Assembly: GCA_025917655.1 (NCBI GenBank)
Contig: CP084612.1
Location: 1,984,001-2,048,000, forward strand
DNA from: Chlorella sorokiniana
Lineage: Eukaryota; Chlorophyta; Trebouxiophyceae; Chlorellales; Chlorellaceae
Length of the DNA stretch: 64,000 bases
Direction of reading: 5' to 3'
Part shown: piece by piece, positions 4,585 through 59,522 of the stretch
Numbering within the stretch: position 1 is the stretch's first letter
Layout: each line of letters opens with the position of its first letter
Notes under the pieces: generated by a model
What the model saw: the letters and a program-made list of their open reading frames with translations, nothing else
Told to the model about the DNA's origin: nothing
Database searches by the model: none
Translations under genes and position numbers: made by a program

Positions 4585-7500
4585 TCTCAACTCGCGGCCG
4601 ATTCCAACAAGGAGGTTGTCAAGATCCAGCGAGTAAGCGGTGCCGTCTGCTTCACCCTGCTTGTGGCGGTCTGCATCGCAAGGTCGAAGGCAAATGCCAG
4701 TGGCCGAGCGCTGGGGCGCTCCCGCGTTGCTTCTCTCTTTTGCAGCGGCTGGTGAAGGCTCGAATCGAGAAGGCTCGGATTGACATAGACTCTCTGATTG
4801 ACAAGCTTGACAAGTACGAGAAGGCGTGGCAGGTGGGGCTGCGCTGTTGTGGGCGGCCGCTGACATGGGCGGCCGCAACAGCAGGCCGGCTTTGAATTAA
4901 GCCTGCAGCTGTTCAAGATCCACTGTGCTGGTTGTGCTGTCCTTCCCGTGACTGCGAGCTTCTGCCCTCTGCTCCTTGCTGCAGAGCTTGCGTGATGCCG
5001 TGGCTGCCCAGCTGGGGGAGGGCTGCCCCGAGGAGCTGTCTGGCTTGGCGGACATGCTGGCGGGCGGCGCGTTGCTCATCCGCACACCCGCATCAAGCGC
5101 TGAAAGCCAGCATCAAGCGCTGGAAGCCGCTGCTGCTGGTGATGCAGTACTGCAGGTGGGTGTGTTGGGCAGGCTGCGGCCCCTGACTGGGTGCTCATTG
5201 GCGACCACAGCTGTGTTCACGCTTCACCCAACTAGCAGACCGCTCCTGCGGGCGGCATGCCTGCACCTACAGAATTTTTGCACGCCCTCAGACCTATGCA
5301 TGGATGGCTAAGGGCCGGCCTGCTGCTCAACTGCCCTTTGTTGTCTCAATATCATGCAGACACAGCGCAAGTTTTTCAGCGAGATACCGTCTGGACTCGT
5401 GCAGCGCCACATGGCCAACCCCCAGGTCTGGGGCCGCGCAGCCGCGACGTCCGTGCAGCCTTGCCAACAGCAGCGGCTTGAGTACTGCGACTTTGTTTGC
5501 AACCTTCCGCAAGCTGGTCGCATTTTGCAAACTCACACACAAATGCGTGTGCATGTACACTCAACTTCTGTGCAGGGAGCTCGCCAACATGCCGCTTCAG
5601 ACGCAAAGGGCGACGAGGGTGCGCAGCACGGCATCCCAGGCAACCATAGTGAGGTGGTTGGTAGCCCGTTGATTGACCAGCAGGCAGGGGCAGCTCATGA
5701 GGTCCGCGATGCGAGCAGCGACCGATATGCCGACGTCTATGACGACCGCAGCAGGGCAGGAGGCAGCCATTTGAGCGACGGGCAGGAGCATGGCGCTTCT
5801 GGAGAGGGTGCTTTGTCGTCACTGGGTTATGATGTGGCCAGCGGGCGTCAAAGCCCTGTGCGCTAGCAAAGCGTCTGATGCGCCTGCGCCTGGCCAGCCC
5901 TCCCAGCCCCAGCGTGCAGCGGCGGGCTGGCACTCGTGTGCGGCTGCCGCAGGGCGGCCCCTCTGTTGGAGCAGCTCAGGCAAGCCTGGCTGGTTGTGGG
6001 AAGCCGCCGCCGCTGGGTTGGGGCCCTTGGTGATGCAGGCATATGCCTGCATGGGACATGCTTCTGGCCGCCTTGCTGCCGCTGCACCGAGCTGCGTGCG
6101 CCTTTCAGCAGAGCCTGGTGGCCTGTGCACTCTAGCCAGGGCCTTGCTTGCAGGGACATACCTGCTGACGTTCATTGGGCACTTGCTCAGTCGCCGAACC
6201 CGCTCCCTGCGTGCAGCCCACCCTCGAAAAACGCAGAGGCCGGCCCCGAGAATGAGCCCCCAACCCAGCTGTGCACGCCGCTCCAGTTTGCCTTTGGCAG
6301 GATGAAGGCACGTGTCTGCTTCGCGAGGGCAACGAGGTGAGGCTGCGCGGCGGCTGCGGCGGCCTTGGTGGTTGAGCAGAGGTGCCTTCAGTTGCTTTGT
6401 TGGGGCTGCCTGCTTGGTCCATCAGGCGTTTCTTTGCTGCAGTGTTCTGTGCTCTGCTGTGGCAGTGCATGCGCGTGCTGCAGCCTGCCGGCAAAGCCAC
6501 TTCCTTCTCAGTGCTACGCAGCCCTCTTTGCTGCCGCTATTTGCATTGCCTGGCTCCCGACCGTGTGGGTGCTGATCAGCATGATGAGGCTGGCCTCGGC
6601 CCCTCTTTTCCGGTTGCAGTTGTTGCTGCTCATCATGGCCAATCGCACCAGCGCCAAGTACGCTTGCCTGGTGGTGGGCGCGGTGGGACTGCACACCACG
6701 GCTGCCGACGTGGCTGGATTGACAGGAAAGGGCGCACCCTGGCAGGAGCGGAAGGGCGGCTTCCAGCTGTTCTGGAAAAACACCAGCAACGTTCTGGTGA
6801 GTGCCAGGGTGGGAAGAGTGGGTGAAAATTGACGCTTCATGGGTGTGTTCCTGCTGCAATGAATACTTTCACGTTCTCGTTGTTGGGATGCGTGCGCTTG
6901 AGTGAGCGTGTGTTGCCGTGGGTTGCCCACATGTCGGCGCCAGTCGGCCTGCATCTGCCATCCAACTTTACGCTGAGATAGCTGCTGCTGCCTCCATGCG
7001 GCCCACGCCCCCCCCCCCCCGCCTGCAGCGCGCTAAGGCCCTGGCTGGCGGATGCCTGGTTGTGGCACAGCAGTGCCTGCAGCAGCTGGGCACCGCTGGC
7101 GGCGAGGCTGTGGGGCTGGGGCTGGGCCTGCACCGCGAGCCGTGCGCGCTGGACGGCGGCAGCAGCGAGGGCCACCTGTGCCTGCGCCTGCGCGTGAGCC
7201 GGCAGTTGTCGAATGTTTCCGTGCTGGCAGACGGCTCAGGTGGGGATGGGTGGGGTGGGATTGGATTGCGGACACTGCAAACTGCAGAGAGCCCACAGAG
7301 AGCCATTTCGATTGTGGGAATTCCCCTGAGGTGGCCGCAGCCGCAGCCACCAGCTGTGCGCACCCTCATGCGCCCTGGTGTGCTCCATGGGCTGGGCTGC
7401 GTGGCGGGAGCCGCGTGGCAGACTTGCAGCCAGCAAACAGCGTGTTAGCCTCTTGATGCATCTCCCTCAAGCTTGCACTGGCACCTGCTGACGTTGCGCT

Positions 7501-11134: not shown

Positions 11135-11590
11135 CTACCTTGATGTCGGTGGTGGTTGAATCGTTGAGAAGGCTCACATCGCGACGGAAGGCGGCAGGGT
11201 CCAAAGCCGCCATCGCGGGCGACTGCAGCGCCCAAGGAGTGGCCAGCCACTGTTAAAAAGGGCAGCCTCAGCCTCTGGCAGCCATCTAGGTAGGCTCCCC
11301 AGGCAATGTTCAGTTCCCGGCTGCACAGCACAAGGGAGCACAGTCAATAGCAGCAGCACGATGGGCTGCCTGCAGACTGCGCTCCCTTGTGCTGTGCAGC
11401 CGGGCAGTGAACATGGCTTGTGGAGCCTACCTAGATGCATGCCAACGGCTAAGGCTGCCCTTTGAAGAGTGGCTTGCCACTCTGTAGGCGCTGCTGTCGC
11501 CCGCGCTGGCGCCTCTGGACCCTGCTGCCTTCCGTCGCGATGTGAGCCTTTTCAACGATTCAACCACCACCGCCATCAAGGTAGGACACG
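11135..11590. repeat. Large inverted repeat, arms about 210 bp, short spacer
   Basis: The sequence 11378-11590 is repeated as its reverse complement at 11135-11346 with high identity, separated by only about 30 bp. Shared landmarks include CTTGTGCTGTGCAGCCGGG, GGAGCCTACCTAGATG, CCTTCCGTCGCGATGTGAGC and CAACGATTCAACCACCACC. Each arm carries the same exon-like sequence ending in a donor (ATCAAG|GTAGG): DPAAFRRDVSLFNDSTTT on the right and DPAAFRRDVSLLNDSTTT on the left. The arms differ by small changes, so the duplication is not brand new. A single strand could form a very long hairpin. Confidence 0.9.
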
Positions 11591-24340: not shown

Positions 24341-25489
24341 AGTGGAGGCGTGCTACACCGCCCTCACCACCCCGTCTTGGTCGCCTACCATTCCCTGCGG
24401 CGACGACGCTGCCAACTTCAAGGCAGATGCTAGTACCCATGCAAGCTTGTTTTTGCCAAATGTGTCTCAACAACAATCTGGACCAATGCGCGCGTGTGCA
24501 GCGCAGCAGGTCCCCCACCCGTGCTGCGGTCGGCCAGCCGAAGCTGCCATCGCTGAGGCTGCCGCCAGGTAGCCGCCTTGATCTCCACCACAGCCTTCCT
24601 CCTGCTGTCACCCTTGCCCTGCCGCCGCAGGGCCGCTCGCGTGCTGCCCTGGGCTGGCCCCGTCCCATTCCCCTTGTGTCTCGACGGTTTCGCTGAAGCG
24701 CAGTTTTCCCGTTTGTACAGTACCATCTCCAAGCGCCGTTCATTTTTCTCGTCGGTTGGTTTCGCTGCACCGCTGCCCTTGAACTCTACACGCTATTTAT
24801 GCCTGCGATTGATGTTTGTTTCATACCGTGTACTCCACATCTGCTGCAACGACTCCAATGTTCGGCCTCTTCCTATGCATGACTGGCTCGCCAGGCTTTG
24901 CATGTGCAAACTAAACGTTGGAGCGTTGCGCTTGCACTCCGCCGCCTCTCCCGGCTTCCACACGCGCACAGTGCGGCTGCAGCCCAACGCTGTGCGCGCT
25001 CAAGTTTTGACCACCCCAGCTGATCCCGACCCGCGCCACTTGCTCCCTTTTCAGTGAGCGCAGTCGCTGCTGCACGATTGTAGGAGCGCACACCGATCTA
25101 GCCGCAGATCAGCACTTGCGCTCACTATTCCCGCCTCCACCCTTACAATCTGTGTTCATCTGCTAGCTTAGTTACAGCCAGGTTCCCAATGCCATGCCAT
25201 GCCATGCCACCGCCCCAGCGTTTCTTTTCGCCAACAACGGATTTGATTGGAACGTGAGATACCGGGTGCCTGTAGAATATGTTGAGAGCCAGCAAGCGCA
25301 CATGAAAAACACGCTCACTTGCAGTGCTGGTATGGGCTGTCTCTGCTGTGGGCTGCTTGGGTTGTCAGGCCACACGCCAAGCTGTCCAAGCCGTGGTGGG
25401 TGCGCTGCTGGGGCGCCAGGCGGCACGTTTATTGATGTCGGCCAGGCCAGGCAAGGGCCGGCGCGATCACTCTTTGTCCTTCTCGCAGG
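24341..25489. other. 3' region of PP2C and spacer
   Basis: This 1.15-kb stretch follows the PP2C stop. It contains AT-richer 3'-UTR-like sequence (24700-24850), an ATGCC pentamer repeat at about 25189-25208, and an open frame from about 25194 (LFANNGFDWNVRYRVPVEYV) that I cannot confirm. It ends in TTCTCGCAG, a 3' splice site directly before the small frame at 25490. Confidence 0.4.
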
Positions 25490-25660
25490 ATGGGTCCCGC
25501 CGAGGCAGGCGACGAGGAGCGTGGCCTGCTGCAGGAGGAAGAGCCGGCCTGCACGCCGGCCTGCGTGTGGGCGGAGGTGCTGTGATACGGCCAATACGTC
25601 CTTCCTATCGCGTTGGTGAACGCCATCCTGCTGCTGCTGCTCTGGCGGCTGCTCAGCTAG
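25490..25660 (+). CDS. Small acidic/membrane-tail reading frame with in-frame TGA (possible selenoprotein)
   Basis: ATG 25490 lies one base after a good 3' splice site (TTCTCGCAG|G). The frame reads 31 residues (MGPAEAGDEERGLLQEEEPA, then CTPACVWAEVL), meets TGA at 25583-25585, and continues with YGQYVLPIALVNAILLLLLW and RLLS to TAG at 25658-25660. The head is acidic; the part after the TGA is an ideal single membrane helix, as in tail-anchored proteins. If the TGA is read as selenocysteine the product is 56 residues with Sec at 32. A SECIS-like hairpin lies at 25691-25752. Alternatives are an 80-nt intron from 25577 (GAG|GTGCTG) to 25656 (CTCAG), which would remove the TGA and helix and leave a long open frame downstream; a base error; or a dead gene. 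An upstream coding exon is also possible. Confidence 0.35.
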
Positions 25661-25690
25661 CGGCCGGGAAGCGGCGGCGGCGTGCCGCCC

Positions 25691-25752
25691 ATGACGCGCG
25701 GCTGCCCAAACTGAGCAGGGCTCCTGTTGCCCCTCGGCGGCAGCGCGCTGAA
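25691..25752 (+). promoter_or_regulatory. SECIS-like hairpin
   Basis: Folded by hand, the RNA has the layout of a eukaryotic SECIS. ATGA begins at 25691; the quartet UGAC (25692-25695) faces UGAA (25749-25752), matching the UGAN/KGAW consensus with G-A and A-G pairs. Above it, 25696-25700 pair with 25744-25748, G25701 is bulged, and 25702-25706 pair with 25739-25743. AAA sits unpaired at 25708-25710, about 12 nt above the quartet, as in known SECIS. An upper stem pairs 25713-25715 with 25733-25735 and 25718-25720 with 25730-25732 around a 9-nt loop. GC-rich DNA folds easily, so chance is not excluded. Confidence 0.4.
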
Positions 25753-26244
25753 CCGCGCACGCCTACCTTTCAGTGCTGGCTTTCGAAGTTTTCCCCACTC
25801 CCTTCTTCTGCTATTGTGCCGCCAGCCTGCTGCCCCGCCCACTTGCCCTGCCTCCGTTGCACCCACCTGGTCGCCCTGCATCCTGGCACATCAGCACTGC
25901 TTGCCAGCACGCCATGTCACATGATACAAAGCGTCCAGCGTGCAGCACAGGCGGTCAAGCATGCCTGCCCCAATAGCAGCGCCCTGGAGACCCATCGCCC
26001 CACGCTCAGAATGGCACATCCTTCTCCAGGCAGCCGTCGCGCCTGCACCGCAGCCCTGCCGAGGTCGGCGAGCACGGCGTGGTTGGCTTACACCCCCTCA
26101 AAGGCCGCTGTGAGGGTGCATTCCATACAAGGACCAGCTGCCGGCCGGGGGCCACGGGACGGACCGCCGCGCCGCCATCCGCCGCTCAGCGCCCGCCAAC
26201 ACGCTCGCGCTGCTCCCTTGTCGCTCCGCTGCTCTGCTCCCCTG
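25753..26244. other. Spacer between the small frame and MOS2/GPKOW 3' end
   Basis: No exon with support was found in this 492-bp stretch. One plus-strand frame stays open but has no coding character, and it sits at the convergent end of two transcription units. Confidence 0.5.
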
Positions 26245-29200
26245 TCACTCTGCGTCCCAGGCATCCAGGGGGCCCACATACTCCGCCACGTCGTCAAGGC
26301 TCAGCTTCTGCACTGAGAAGTCGCTGGTCAGCTGCACCGCCGCCAGCCCGGTTTCTGCGGGACAAGAACAAAGCGGGCATGAGGAGCAGGGGCAGGGGGT
26401 GACCAGAAAGGGCCCAGCAGCCTGGCAAGCCCGGCCTGAGCGCAAAAGTGTGGCAGTACAAGAGACCAGGTGCAACAGCCGCATCAAAGAATGTGCTCCG
26501 GGTTGTGGCGGCACAAGCGAGCACGGCTGACCAAGCATCATGCAGCAGCAGCAGGCCGCAGCATGCCCACTCCCCCATGCGCAGCGAAGTGCCCGCCGCG
26601 GCTGGCGCACCCGCGTTGCGCTTCAGCAGGCGGCCCTGCTTGCCGCGCAGCGCTCCGGCCAGCACCAGCACCGGGGTGCCCTCCGCCGCAGACACCACCG
26701 TCTCCAGCTGCGACTGGTGCAGGTCCTGTGGGCATCCCGGGGGAGCAGGAGCAGGCGGTGTGTATGTGAGTGCGTTGAAGCGGGGTGGTGGGGCATCGGT
26801 GTGGCATGGAGTTGGGTGGCGCGGCGCCAGCAGGCAGGTGTCGTTGGGGTGGTGGGGTGGAACAGCGGAGGCCGAGCAGCTGAGTGGGTAGCCCAGCGCG
26901 TGCCGCCATTCCGCAGCACACGTGAGGCGTGCAGCTGTGCCAGGCGCCGTGCATGCTGTGCACTTGAGGCCAGCCTTGAATCAGGCAGGCAGGGGGATGG
27001 GGACATGCCGCTATGCAGCGCCAGCCGCGAGCTCACCAGCACGCTTTCCTTCACATCATCCACAAACACGTCGCACACTGCGGCAGAGCGGAGCATGGCG
27101 CAGCGGAGCCGCAGGTGGAGGGCATTCAGCACATTGCACGCCGGGCGGGCGCCAGACCGCAGGCAGGAAGCGGCACAGCGCGGCACAATGGCAGAGCGGG
27201 GTGGTCGCCAGCAACAGCCCACTGCCAGACCCGCCACACCGCCGAACATCCCGGCTGCCCGGCCCCAGCATCTCAGCGTTGCTGCTGCTCGAAGAGAGGC
27301 GGCGCCAGAAGGAGGACAGAGCGGTGGGGCCCAGCAGGGGGTGGGGGCGGCGCACCCATGGGCGTCTTGACGTCCACCACCGTCCCTTTCTTCAGGTAGA
27401 GCTTGCCGCCCTTGGCGCGCTTGTCCACGATCTTCACCCTGCCCACAAGGGAAGGGGCAAGCGGGGAGGGGGTTCGTAAAGCAGGGCGAAGGAGGCTTGC
27501 AAGGATTCCACCCTTAACAGGGCAGCAAGGTGGCTCAAGAGCTCGGCTGGAGCCACAGGAGCATGAGGAAGGGAGGGCAGTGGCGCAGCACAGCGGGCAG
27601 GTCACACGGCGAGGAGACTCGATGCAAAACAGGGCAGCCCCACCGGATGCTGGGCATGAGCCACGGCCGCTCGTCGCGGTGCTGCGGCGAGGCGTCGCGC
27701 TCCCGCTTGCTGCGCTTGCCCTCGCGCTCCTGCCGGCCGTCGCGCTCTCCGCTGCGGCCGCCGTCTGCGCCAGCACAGGGGTTTGAGCGAGAAGGGGTGA
27801 TCAAATGTAGAGCGCAGAACGGGGCTGCCTGGAGGTGTGTGTGAGGTGTCGGGGGATCTTGTGTGTTTGAGGCACAGGGGGCTAGGCCAGCGTGCATCGA
27901 AGGCAGATACACACAGGACACACAACCGAAAACGCGGGTGCCAGCAGAGGCGAGCCGCGCACCGTTTTTGCCGCCGCCCGCTCCCGCCCGCCCTCCCGGC
28001 TGGCGGGGCGCCGCTCTCCCTCCTCCTTCTCCCCCAGCTCGGAGCAGCGTACGGTCACCGCCTCGTACGAGGGAAGCAGCCGCACTCTCGCACGCTCTGC
28101 GGGGGAAAGGAAGCGGCAGGGCGGCACGGGGGAGGTGGGCGGCAAGGGCGGGCATCAGCACGGGCGGCGCATCCGTGCCTGCTTGACACCATAACGGGCA
28201 AGCCGGGAAGCAGGTGGGTGATGCGGATGGCAGGTCGTGGGGTGTGAGGGGGCCGGGTGGGTGGGGCCAGCACAGCCAGAGGCAGCTAGGGGTCCGCACC
28301 CTCCCAAGCACCAGCACAGGCCGCAGCATGTTCAGCTGGGTGCAGGGCAGCACGGCGCAGCATTTAAGCCTGGAGTAGTCCCCCCCCATCCCCCCACTGC
28401 GCTCACCCGACCGCCCCTCCTGCTTGGGTTCCAAAGCCACCACCTCACACATCAGCCCGCTGTGCCGCCCCTCCACCACCCGCATGACCTGCGGCGGCAA
28501 CACCAGAGGCTGGGGTGAGGGTGGGGGCCTTGGGGGCTGCACAGCCAGCCCGGGCACAGCAGTGCCGCCTTCCAGAGGGGCAGCGGCTCAGGCCCGCTTG
28601 CGCCATCTATCTAGAGAGAGAGAAGAGAGAGAGAGAAGAACACCCCACTTCAACCACTGCCGCCTCCAGCGCTCTCGGACCGCCTGCTTCGTAGCCCCTT
28701 TGGCTCTGACGCAGTGACATCGTTGCACCCCCGCTTCCCCTCGCACGCCGCCGCGTGCCAGTGCCAGCGGCGGAGGCCCCATTCTAAGCCGCAGCCGCGT
28801 TTGCCCACCTTGCCCGCGTGGACGCCCTCCCTCCGCCGCTCTTGCAGCGCCTCGCCCACCGGCTTGCTGGCGCGCTGCACCCCCTCCGAATCCACGTACA
28901 CCAGGTCTTTCTTGTCGCGGCTCTCGCCTGGTGGGAGGAAAGACGAGGGAAGGAAAGGGGGAGTGAAGTGGCAGTACGGGGAGGAGAAGGGCAGGGGACT
29001 TTGTCTGCAGGACTTTTTCTGCAGAGGAAAAAGAGATGACATGCGCTCAGCTGCTGGCAGTCCGCCGCCCAAGCCAGCCTCCCCAGAGCCCACCCGGCTT
29101 GATGTACTTCTTCTGGTTCTGCTCAGGCGCTGGCGCCGCCCCAGCCCCAGCCGCTGCGGCCGCCTGCAGGAGCAGCCAGAACGATGCACGGCCGGCAGTG

Positions 29201-55395: not shown

Positions 55396-58300
55396 ATGTG
55401 CAGCGGCGGGCCCATGTCGCTCCAGGGCCGCTTACCCCAACCTTGCCACCCCCTGCCGCCGCCCGCCCACGCAGGCCGAGGTGCGCGCCCCCAGTCCCCG
55501 GCAGCAGTGGCCCCCTACCCAGCCCTGGATGCTGGCACCGTCATTGCGCAGCTCGTCAGCAAGCAGGAGGAGCATTCCGCGGGCAGCATGACGCCGCCGC
55601 TGGAGAGCCTGCTGCGTTCCATGTCGCTCGCCGCCGCCCCAGCTGGCGCCGACGACAAACCACATACCGGCCCAGGTGAGGGCGCCTGCCAGCCTGCACG
55701 CTGCATGCGGCTGTGCAGTGGCAGGGGGCCTCGATTCGCGCATGTGGGCTTGTTTGGGGGCTGTGAGGGCGGGCGGATGCCACAATCGACCCAAGGCGAG
55801 CCAATGAGGTATTTCCGTGAGGCAGGCAGGTGCAGGGGAAGGGGAGCTGTGCGATCGAATCATAGACCGGCCGCTGACCGCTGCCACGCCCCGTCCTTGC
55901 TGCAGGCGCCGCCGCCGGCCCCTCCAGCCGCGCCGGCGGCCCGGCCAGCGCCGCCACGTTCGAGGCCGCGCTCAACAGCTGTGCGCTGGCGGTTCTGCAG
56001 AAGCAGGGCACCCTGAGGTGCGCTGCCGCCCCCTCTGCTCCGGCTGCTGCGCCGCCTGCAGCCTGCCGCCCGCTGCGACACAGCGCCGGCCCACAGATGC
56101 TCCCATCGGTATCATCGCCTTGGCACAGCAGCCCTTTCCATGCGCCGATGAGCCTACTACGTCACACGGACCCCCTGCGTGACGGGCAGACACCCGCACG
56201 CTGGCCTTCACACCAGCCACACCCATGCCCCGCCAACCTCTCCCGTCACTCCTCCCTCCACTCATTCCCCTGCCCCCGCAGCGGCGACGGCAGCCCTCAA
56301 AGGACAGTTTTGAGGGCGCCTCCCCAGCGGGCCTTCGGCTGGCGGCACCCGCTGAGAGCCTCCCGCTCCGCCCCCGGCCTCCCTGTCCGAGCTGCTGCGC
56401 CAGGTCGACGCCGCAGCCGCCGGCAGCCCGCCCTCCACGCCCCACCTGCACCCGGCGCGGCAGCGCCCATGCTCTCCGTGTCCCTCGGCGCCTACAGCAG
56501 CGGCAGCCCGGATGCCACCACGCCCGCGCCGCCTCCGCATGTGCTTCTGCTTCCGCCTCCGCCTCGTCCGCCGACCTCGCTGGCGCCGCCGCGCTGCCGG
56601 CCCGCTTGCTGAGCGAGCGGCTGCAGCAGCAGGCAGAGCGTGCCCAGCGCCCAGCAGGCCCAGCAGGCCTGTCGCCCGGGGCTGGAGGCCGCTCTGGCGG
56701 CCGAGGGCGCCTGGCCGCCAGCAGAGGCTGACCTGGCGGCGGCGGGCAGCCACTCCTGGTCTGCCCCAGCGGCGCTGCTGCTGGGCGGCGCACCGATGCC
56801 TGCGCCGGCCCCACCGCTGGCTTGCCTGCCGCCGCACGCCCCCTGGCAGGGCTGCAGCAGCAGCCCGGCGCCGACCTGGCCGCGCTGCAGCTGCAGGACG
56901 GCTGCTGGGCGGCCGCCGCCGCCGCGCTCTCCCTGGGCGGCAGCCTCAGCCTGCCGCCGCCCGCGGCCGCCGCCTGGCCCGGCCCCGAGCTGTCCCAGCT
57001 GCAGGCCCTGCTGCAGTCGCAGCGGCAGGGGCAGGCGGCGGCGGCGGCCCTGCACCAAGTGCAGCAGGCGCACCAGGCCCGCCTCTCCCACCCCGCCGTC
57101 CTGCCCGGCACCGCCCTGCCGGCGTTCCCTGGGGTGGAGCACCAGCTGGGCCTGCCGCCGGGCATGTGCCACAGCGCCCGGCTGCCTACCCCCACCTCCT
57201 GTCCCAGGCAAGCAGCGCTGCCGGATCGTTTGCTTGCTGCCGGATGTTGCGACGGTTGTGGATCCCGGGCTGAGAGTGTGCGCGTTTGGTGTGTGTGGAG
57301 GCTCTGCTGTGGTAGTGAGCTACAGCTTGGGTTGGGAGGGAAACAAGGGGTTTCAGCTGGCGTAACCCCACCCGCCCACCATCTCCTCACACGCCCCCGC
57401 CCTGCCGCTGCCGCCATCAGCGGAACCCACCTGTCGCCCACTTTACCACGCGCGCCCCCCGCCCGTAGGCCGTGCTGCTGCCCCGCCGCCGCCTGGTGGA
57501 GCAGCTGCCCCCGAGTGCCTTGTGGGCCTGGGCGCCGCGTACCAGCCGTACTGCACCCAGGTGCGGTACAGGTGGCTGCAGCGGGCGGTGTACTGCTTTT
57601 GCACTGTCTTGCAAGCCCCCCGCCCCTGCCAGTCACACTTGATAAATCCACCCTTGCCCCCTTCATCAATGCAGATCATCTCTGACCGCCTGAATGAGGC
57701 CGCCCAAGCCTCCCTCACCGCAGTGAAGCTGCTGCAGGCGCGCGGTGCCGCGCTGCTTATAGTTACTACAGTAACAGCACGCCCATCTGCTTCTACCCGC
57801 ACGCAAAACAGCCAGCCTGCCGCACGTCCGCTCTCAGCGGCTCTGACGCTGCTGCCGCCAGCTGGCGACTCTGGCCATTCCGACGAGTTCGCTCCGGCCA
57901 TTCCGCTTGCCACACAAGTTGAGGAACCTCCCCAACCTCACAAACCCCTCCCACACACCCCCACCTCCCCCACAGCAGGGCAGCGACCCTCCCGCCGCCG
58001 CCCGCGTCTTTGGCCGCCGCTACTTCTGCTCCCTCAAGGAGGTGAGCGGGCACTGTGGTGCTGCATCCCTTCTGCTTCGTGAGCTGTGCTTTGTGGACAA
58101 TGTGTATGGCGGTGCAGCAACTGGTCTTGCCTTGTTTCTTTGGTTGTGGTGTGTGGGTGAGCCGGTGAGTGGTGAGGGCGGGGCGGGTGAGGGGTGGCCC
58201 TTGCTCGGGTCCCTGCCCCCCGGGGCCCTGCCTTGTCCCACAAACACAGCCGCCACGGCGCAAACATAGCTGTGGCCAGTGGCGCCCCCAGCTTCCCTGC

Positions 58301-59522
58301 CCCACCACCAACCCACGCACCCACACACCCCCCGCCCCCACAGGTGTCCAAGGTTGTGCCCTCTGCCCGCTGCCTGGTGGTGGCCCCAGACGTGCGCGTC
58401 TCCCCACCGCACACATCAACCCCGTCAGGGCGCTGCAGGTGGGACCCCTCTGGCCCCCAGTCCGCATGGTGACGCCCAGCCGCGTCGGGCTGCTCGCCAC
58501 GACATCGCCCCTCCACAGGCTGTGCTGCCCCGCCGCTCGCCGCTGGGGGGGGCAGGAGCGTCGCGCGTGCCATGCTTGTTTTGTGCCCCACCCCTCCCCG
58601 CCCGCAAACACCCTGCCCGCGAATACCCTGCCGCAGCGCTGCCGCCGCCTGCCGCCGCCGAGTGCCACCCCTCCTCGCCGCTTCGCCGCCACCCGCCGCT
58701 GCGTCCCACCGCCTGCCCGCCGCACCCCCGCTCGCCGCCTGCAGCGCATCCTGCGTGATGCCGAGCTTCACGGTGTGCCCGTGGTGTTTGCTCTCAGCCG
58801 CAAGGGGATCGGCCAGGTGGGCTGGGCAGGGGCGAGAGGGGGTGCGGCGGCGGGGGAACTGCCGCTTGGCCGCCACGGGAGGCATTTTTTCTGCCGACAG
58901 CCCTATGGGGCTGGCGCAAGCAGGGATGCTTTTTGACTGCAGCAGGTGCCGCCGCTGTTTCGGTGGCCACCGGCATGCTCTGTTTACAGCCGTTCCATGC
59001 GGGAATGGGGGAGAGGGGGGGGGGGGGCCTACCGAGCCTCGCTCCAAGCTGCACCGACCGTGCCGCTCGCTTCTCTTCTGGCCCCTCCCCGACTCTGCCC
59101 ACCGCGCCGTCGGCCTGTGGCCCACGTATCGCAACGTACCGCCTGCCTGTACCGCCTCCGTCCCGCAGGTGTTTGGCAGGGACAAGCTGATGTCAATCGT
59201 GGCGCTGATGAATCTGGAGGGGCTGGAGGGCAGCTACCGCGCCATGCTGGATGAGGCCATCAAGGTACCGCTGCGGTCCCGCATAGATTACTGCCTGCGC
59301 TGCCTCCCCCAGCATCGCCGCCTGCTCTTGCCAGTCCCGGCCCGCCGCTGCTGGGAGTAGCGGGGTGCTGCAGGCCCGTAGCTGGCGGGGGTTGGGGTGC
59401 TCCCCGCTGCAAAAGGTGCCCCCTCGAGTTGCCAACCCCCGCCCCCTCGCGCCCTTCCTTCCTCGCTACAGGGCCGTCAGCTGTTCGACCAGCACCGGTG
59501 CGGGCAGCTCCTGCTGGGCTGA
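55396..59522 (+). CDS. SECISBP2: SECIS-binding protein 2 (SBP2) homologue
   Basis: Supported exons: 55396-55675, 55906-56017, 56282 to about 57207, 57469-57560, 57675-57744, 57984-58041, 58344-58438, 58745-58816, 59169-59264 and 59472-59522. The N-terminal half is low complexity (Ala, Gln, Pro) with TVIAQLVSKQEEHSAG and ELSQLQALLQSQRQGQ. The C-terminal part matches SBP2's selenocysteine-incorporation and L7Ae RNA-binding regions: AYQPYCTQ, IISDRLNEAAQASLTAVKLL, RVFGRRYFCSLKE, VVPSARCLVVAPDV, HINPVRALQ, RILRDAELHGVPVVFALSRK, GIGQVFGRDKLMSIVALMNL and YRAMLDEAIK, ending DQHRCGQLLLG. SBP2 binds SECIS hairpins in 3'-UTRs and recruits the Sec elongation factor, so UGA is read as selenocysteine. Slips occur near 57500, 57744 and 58410; exon 3 frames are uncertain. 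The start ATG is the first in frame and could be wrong. Confidence 0.8.

Follow-up and report, generated by a model that had tools for sequence, protein, structure and literature searches.

A TGA-interrupted frame with a hairpin downstream

The window analyzed here is a stretch of 64,000 nucleotides (G000:C10:1984001-2048000) within a 38.8 Mb genome of 15 contigs. Its forward strand carries the 56-codon frame with a TGA at codon 32 that the initial annotation had described (Table 1). This is the only TGA before the TAG stop, and with the codon read as selenocysteine (U) the frame (25490-25657) translates as MGPAEAGDEERGLLQEEEPACTPACVWAEVL-U-YGQYVLPIALVNAILLLLLWRLLS. On the basis of frame and composition, the UGA lies within a predicted coding frame.

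The RNA that follows the stop codon is predicted to fold into a hairpin of the SECIS type. The quartet, stem, unpaired AAA and upper stem that had been proposed by hand all reappear in the computed fold, which adds a helix I below them. In this fold, computed for 25675-25768, AUGAC (25691-25695) faces UGAA (25748-25751), both within an internal loop; helix II consists of 10 pairs with one bulge, and an apical stem-loop stands above the unpaired CAAA. The hairpin does adjoin the stop, as had been stated, but the spacing is 31 nt rather than 30 nt, counted from the end of the TAG at 25660 to the SECIS TGA at 25692. Judged by sequence and predicted fold, a SECIS element lies in the 3' UTR of the frame.

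Table 1. Positions of the features discussed in the text, numbered from the first letter of the window
Feature	Position	Strand	Basis
Codons 1-31, acidic head MGPAEAGDEERGLLQEEEPACTPACVWAEVL	25490..25582	+	ATG context (A at -3, G at +4); coding score
In-frame TGA, codon 32, proposed selenocysteine	25583..25585	+	
Codons 33-56, YGQYVLPIALVNAILLLLLWRLLS, predicted transmembrane tail anchor (residues 37-55)	25586..25657	+	coding score, hydropathy, AlphaFold2
TAG stop	25658..25660	+	frame end
Candidate SECIS element: helix I, AUGAC/UGAA quartet, helix II, CAAA, apical stem-loop	25676..25767	+	predicted fold
Hypothetical intron (80 nt), disfavoured	25577..25656	+	coding score, donor
L7Ae-domain, SBP2-like gene, exon pieces (possible SECIS-binding protein)	57847..59360	+	

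The coding signal continues through the TGA

Frames interrupted by TGA are common: of the 1297 TGAs on the two strands of the window, 239 are preceded by an ATG-initiated frame of 25 or more codons and followed by at least 20 further codons. What distinguishes the 56-codon frame is its composition, not the interruption itself. Composition was assessed with a codon score whose training set comprised 22 exon segments (1041 codons) of the same genome, obtained from family searches (three of these segments, in L014, L022 and L075, fell below the family cut-off). Codons 1-31 score 10.9, which is matched by 0.97% of the 80,829 stop-free 31-codon stretches in the window, and 23 of the 24 codons after the TGA score 7.8, which is matched by 1.47% of 90,714 stop-free stretches. 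When the flanks of the gene are taken as non-coding, a score of 10.9 is reached by none of 1053 and none of 481 stretches, and a score of 7.8 by 0.23% of 1308 and none of 593. Across 25200-25760, scanned in the three forward frames, the 56-codon frame is positive in 60-nt stretches starting at 25502-25622, and elsewhere positive values are confined to a different frame, in stretches starting at 25200-25260. Finally, among 271 TGA-interrupted frames of the window with at least 20 codons from ATG to TGA and at least 15 codons after it, both halves are coding-like (at least 10 and at least 7, respectively) in a single case, the frame described here; the runner-up has one half at -9.2. The coding signal is therefore continued through the TGA in the same frame. 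Upstream, the short frame MPCHATAPAFLFANNGFDWN (25194-25260) has a weakly positive coding score and is followed by GTGAGA; it might belong to the same transcript, as a 5' exon or a uORF region.

A base error at the codon-32 TGA appears less likely. A protein search returned an identical 31-residue protein, ending at this codon, that is recorded on four contigs, the longest of 31 kb; these cannot be the 2.2 Mb contig of the window, which argues against an error, with the limit that such a record gives the end of the peptide and not which stop codon comes next.

The hairpin resembles the SECIS elements of other genes in the genome

Four further genes of the genome provide a standard for the hairpin. 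Two glutathione peroxidase (GPx) genes (L010 and L013) have a UGA at the catalytic site (NVASE-U-PLQNVNY and NVASK-U-GLTSVNY) and are followed by hairpins of the form ATGAC...CCAAAC...CGAC, found in a loose scan whose other, less fitting matches in the same loci were set aside. A SelK gene (L076) ends in GGGGUAR-stop, with a hairpin 282 nt past the GGUA site, and a SelU-like gene (L073) contains GULFCWELA, also with a hairpin downstream; a stricter scan of 10 loci turned up these two hairpins and no other place. All four are likely selenoprotein genes. In their hairpins ATGAC is followed after 11-12 nt by AAA, and the 3' quartet is CGAC, CGAC, CGAA or TGAC.

The window element shares this core (ATGAC, 11-12 nt, AAA, [CT]GA[AC] and a helix II of 9-10 pairs) and differs from the GPx, SelK and SelU elements in its apical part, which is longer than theirs, and in a bulge of one base in helix II. 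At -29.6 kcal/mol it is also the most stable of them. It is the single match on either strand of the window to the SECIS pattern of this species and, when a looser SECIS pattern is applied to the window, the most stable match. All six hairpins considered (window, two GPx, SelK, SelU and SelT-like) start with ATGAC, the A and C of which were left free in two locus scans and required in the random-control scan. On the forward strand of the window, 25753-26260 holds no polyadenylation motif TGTAA or TGCAA, a point against the selenoprotein reading; in SelU and SelK, by contrast, a TGTAA follows the SECIS element after about 180 nt.

The SelT-like gene (L068, G000:C3:3808000-3816000) was dropped as a selenocysteine gene, its exon reading FCTRSFKG and no CxxU being found in the right place. 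Despite this, a SECIS-like hairpin is present at 5613 of the locus; possibly selenocysteine has been lost and the SECIS is a relic, or the assembly is at fault here. A GCUG pattern used to look for TrxR gave 50 matches, three of which were inspected and none of which was convincing, and a search of the genome for Sep15/SelM found no match. The four MsrA-like loci (L015, L016, L018 and L022, the last below cut-off) have Cys (GCFW) at the active site.

To gauge how often such a hairpin arises by chance, 78 Mb of first-order Markov sequence with the composition of the window was scanned. It contained 956 raw ATGAC-N11-12-AAR motifs; 18 matches had at least 8 stem pairs, five reached -17 kcal/mol or lower and none reached -25 kcal/mol or lower, compared with -29.6 for the window hairpin. 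In the genome itself ATGAC-N8-11-CCAAAC occurs 124 times (58 + 66). We folded the 28 non-repeat places among the 100 listed matches (contigs C1-C9) and the window's own, the 23 others being unlisted, and 3 of these 29 places, the two GPx elements and the window's, formed a stem of 10 pairs with an energy of -26 kcal/mol or less. Among the remaining 26 the best has 8 pairs and -6.6 kcal/mol, and none of 13 distinct repeat versions that were folded exceeds 8 pairs. Judged against these controls, random and genomic, which are not blind because the pattern was set after the hairpins had been seen, it is very unlikely that the hairpin arose by chance. The repeat versions belong to a 22-mer, ATGACCGATGAGGCAGCCAAAC, which with a one-base variant accounts for 72 of the 100 listed pattern matches on C1-C9 and clusters in one stretch per contig (for example C2:3046453-3093984); it is perhaps a centromeric or retroelement repeat.

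Generic measures are less discriminating. The total folding energy is ordinary for the composition (z of -0.05 over 109 nt and -1.74 over 94 nt), and whole-hairpin z-scores do not set the element apart; one of the genome's own GPx SECIS elements has a z of just -1.06. A covariance model built from the two GPx hairpins places the window element 5th of 29 weak matches in the window, a two-sequence model being too weak for ranking matches. Rfam returned no SECIS family in the window, either at the curated gathering score or at E<=10, in a run that left out the known SECIS elements of the genome. At 11304-11416 the window also holds a long, nearly perfect inverted repeat, on which three miRNA-precursor families score, all below their cut-offs; it is perhaps a MITE or a small-RNA hairpin. 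From its core features and predicted fold, we regard the hairpin downstream of the 56-codon frame as almost certainly a SECIS element.

Selenocysteine machinery

A tRNA-Sec gene with anticodon TCA is located at C8:2116329-2116415 and scores 67.6 bits, above the cut-off. The window had also been said to encode an SBP2 homologue; when four exon pieces at 57.8-59.4 kb are joined, SBP2 is indeed the best PDB match, but the match is weak (E=0.048), the Pfam L7Ae domain scores 14.4 bits against a cut-off of 22.1, and the pieces give no match when left unjoined. An SBP2-like gene in the window is therefore plausible, and the use of selenocysteine in this genome is indicated by the tRNA-Sec together with the Sec-GPx, SelK and SelU genes and their SECIS elements, with the SBP2-like gene as a weak addition.

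Alternative readings of the locus

Several other readings would account for part of these observations. In one, the SECIS is real and serves a larger or differently spliced gene, with 5' exons in 24341-25488 or with another UGA, so that the 56-codon frame would be a last exon. An AG stands directly before the ATG (..CTCGCAG/G ATG), and the 25200-25320 region, with its weakly positive coding score in another frame, runs into GTGAGA. When this stretch is joined at the AG, however, it misses the 56-codon frame (from the coordinates, for the one join considered), there is an in-frame TGA at 25433 with no in-frame ATG from there to 25490, and in 25290-25490 the remaining scored stretches have negative values whichever of the three frames is read. 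The ATG at 25490 is itself in a good start context, and a larger gene of this kind seems unlikely.

Less probable still is the alternative named in the initial annotation, in which the gene is an ordinary one, a short intron (25577-25656 or similar) removes the TGA and the hairpin is incidental. The GT...AG borders are present and 80 nt is a possible length, but splicing is disfavoured mainly by the coding score, which is positive in frame within these 80 nt and negative in the frame that would be read next. The donor, GTGCTG, is also unusual: when 20 exon ends were tried, 5 lacked a usable GT, and 14 of the 15 homology-placed donors have G at +5. A homology-placed donor in L008, GTGCTT, does resemble the candidate, with T at +5 like it. 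Splicing would moreover place the hairpin within coding sequence, and a hairpin so far above chance is hard to reconcile with an incidental one. A third reading, which we consider the most improbable of these, has the 31-residue peptide end at the TGA, or an ordinary amino acid inserted by read-through, with the hairpin as a SECIS relic or decoy. From sequence, read-through is indistinguishable from selenocysteine insertion, and a relic SECIS is conceivable in this genome because a SECIS-like hairpin also follows the SelT-like gene in which no CxxU was found. At the present locus, however, coding composition and a complete membrane helix have been kept after the TGA, and no core feature of the SECIS has been lost. 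The gene upstream, which by eye looks PP2C-like, was rejected as the one served by the SECIS: its TGA lies 1.35 kb off and its read-through extension does not resemble coding sequence (positional GC 0.77/0.53/0.63).

Of all the readings, the one with the best support is that of a small membrane protein whose UGA is decoded as selenocysteine. The assignment of the initial annotation is supported in that the hairpin matches the SECIS elements of the genome's own selenocysteine genes, a tRNA-Sec with anticodon TCA is present and the coding signal runs through the TGA. We are accordingly fairly confident that the locus holds a short selenoprotein gene of about the shape described, with 56 residues, a single helix, a UGA at codon 32 and a SECIS downstream.

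Predicted protein and proposed mechanism

The membrane helix past the TGA that had been noted is recovered by calculation: residues 37-55 are strongly hydrophobic, with a Kyte-Doolittle mean of 2.35, and single-sequence AlphaFold2 predicts one helix spanning residues 23-55, with a mean pLDDT of 78. Inspection by eye reveals no signal peptide, and with its hydrophobic C-terminal anchor and acidic N-terminal head the protein is most likely tail-anchored, the head facing the cytosol. It contains EERGLL, which fits the acidic dileucine sorting consensus; a vacuolar or endomembrane location would agree with this. Sec32 is placed where the head meets the membrane, close to Cys21 and Cys25, and these residues could form a redox pair.

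The mechanism that we propose begins with an mRNA that, by sequence and predicted fold, bears the SECIS hairpin in its 3' UTR. As in the known eukaryotic pathway, SBP2 and eEFSec would use this element to bring Sec-tRNA(UCA) to the codon-32 UGA; of the parts needed, the genome supplies a tRNA-Sec gene and, less surely, an SBP2-like gene. The product would be a 56-residue, single-helix protein with an acidic N-terminal head and a hydrophobic C-terminal anchor, which may act as a thiol/selenol redox switch or reductant at the membrane surface, forming a selenenylsulfide with Cys25 or Cys21 that glutathione or thioredoxin would reset. This redox role, including the selenenylsulfide, is a tentative suggestion.

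Comparison with known selenoproteins

The protein search returned nothing but the identical 31-residue truncated form, and the small protein has no homologue in Pfam (E<=10), the PDB, viral contigs or GTDB genomes, the DNA collections among these being viral and prokaryotic and holding no algae. No paralogue was found in the same genome. Among known selenoproteins, SelK is likewise a small single-helix protein, but its helix comes first and its Sec lies near the C terminus, an arrangement also seen in the SelK of this genome, whereas in the candidate Sec stands ahead of a C-terminal helix; the SelK_SelG domain (PF10961) does not match the candidate, and neither does any other Pfam family at E<=10. 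SelS (SELENOS/VIMP) is a single-pass selenoprotein, as the candidate would be, and its Sec is thought to form a selenenylsulfide. It differs in being larger, with an N-terminal helix and a penultimate Sec, and again the candidate has no Pfam match.

The membrane selenoprotein MSP, described from Ostreococcus, Chlamydomonas, Volvox and Dictyostelium, is similar in being a predicted membrane selenoprotein found in green algae; according to that description it has two Sec residues (PMC2375036), whereas the candidate has one UGA before its stop, and it is by this description that the two are set apart. The same paper mentions good SECIS candidates in Ostreococcus tauri for which no reading frame could be assigned (PMC2375036). 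A survey of the selenoproteomes of 137 algae reports 42 families, of which three are new, and places Trebouxiophyceae, the class that includes Chlorella, among the green algae with the smallest selenoproteomes, at 0-5 selenoproteins (PMC7539508). For Picochlorum 11 selenoproteins are given, found by matching known ones (PMC11092101). Searches of the open literature listed no earlier description of the 56-residue protein.

Implications

Taken together, the locus most likely encodes a new small selenoprotein family, predicted to be tail-anchored with Sec beside the membrane. That the family is undescribed and, at 56 residues, among the smallest eukaryotic selenoproteins, with Sec at the membrane surface, UGA decoding that decides anchoring and selenium that switches the protein between two forms, is a fuller proposal that we moderately favour. 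Its frame was found through a hairpin and a coding signal, with no homologue to guide the search, which suggests that very short selenoproteins can escape detection when they have no known relatives. Since the Sec codon precedes the anchor, decoding of the UGA would decide whether the protein receives its membrane anchor at all, and with this codon ahead of the sole membrane helix, selenium-dependent anchoring is directly testable. If the proposal is true, selenium supply would switch the product between a soluble 31-residue peptide and a membrane form.
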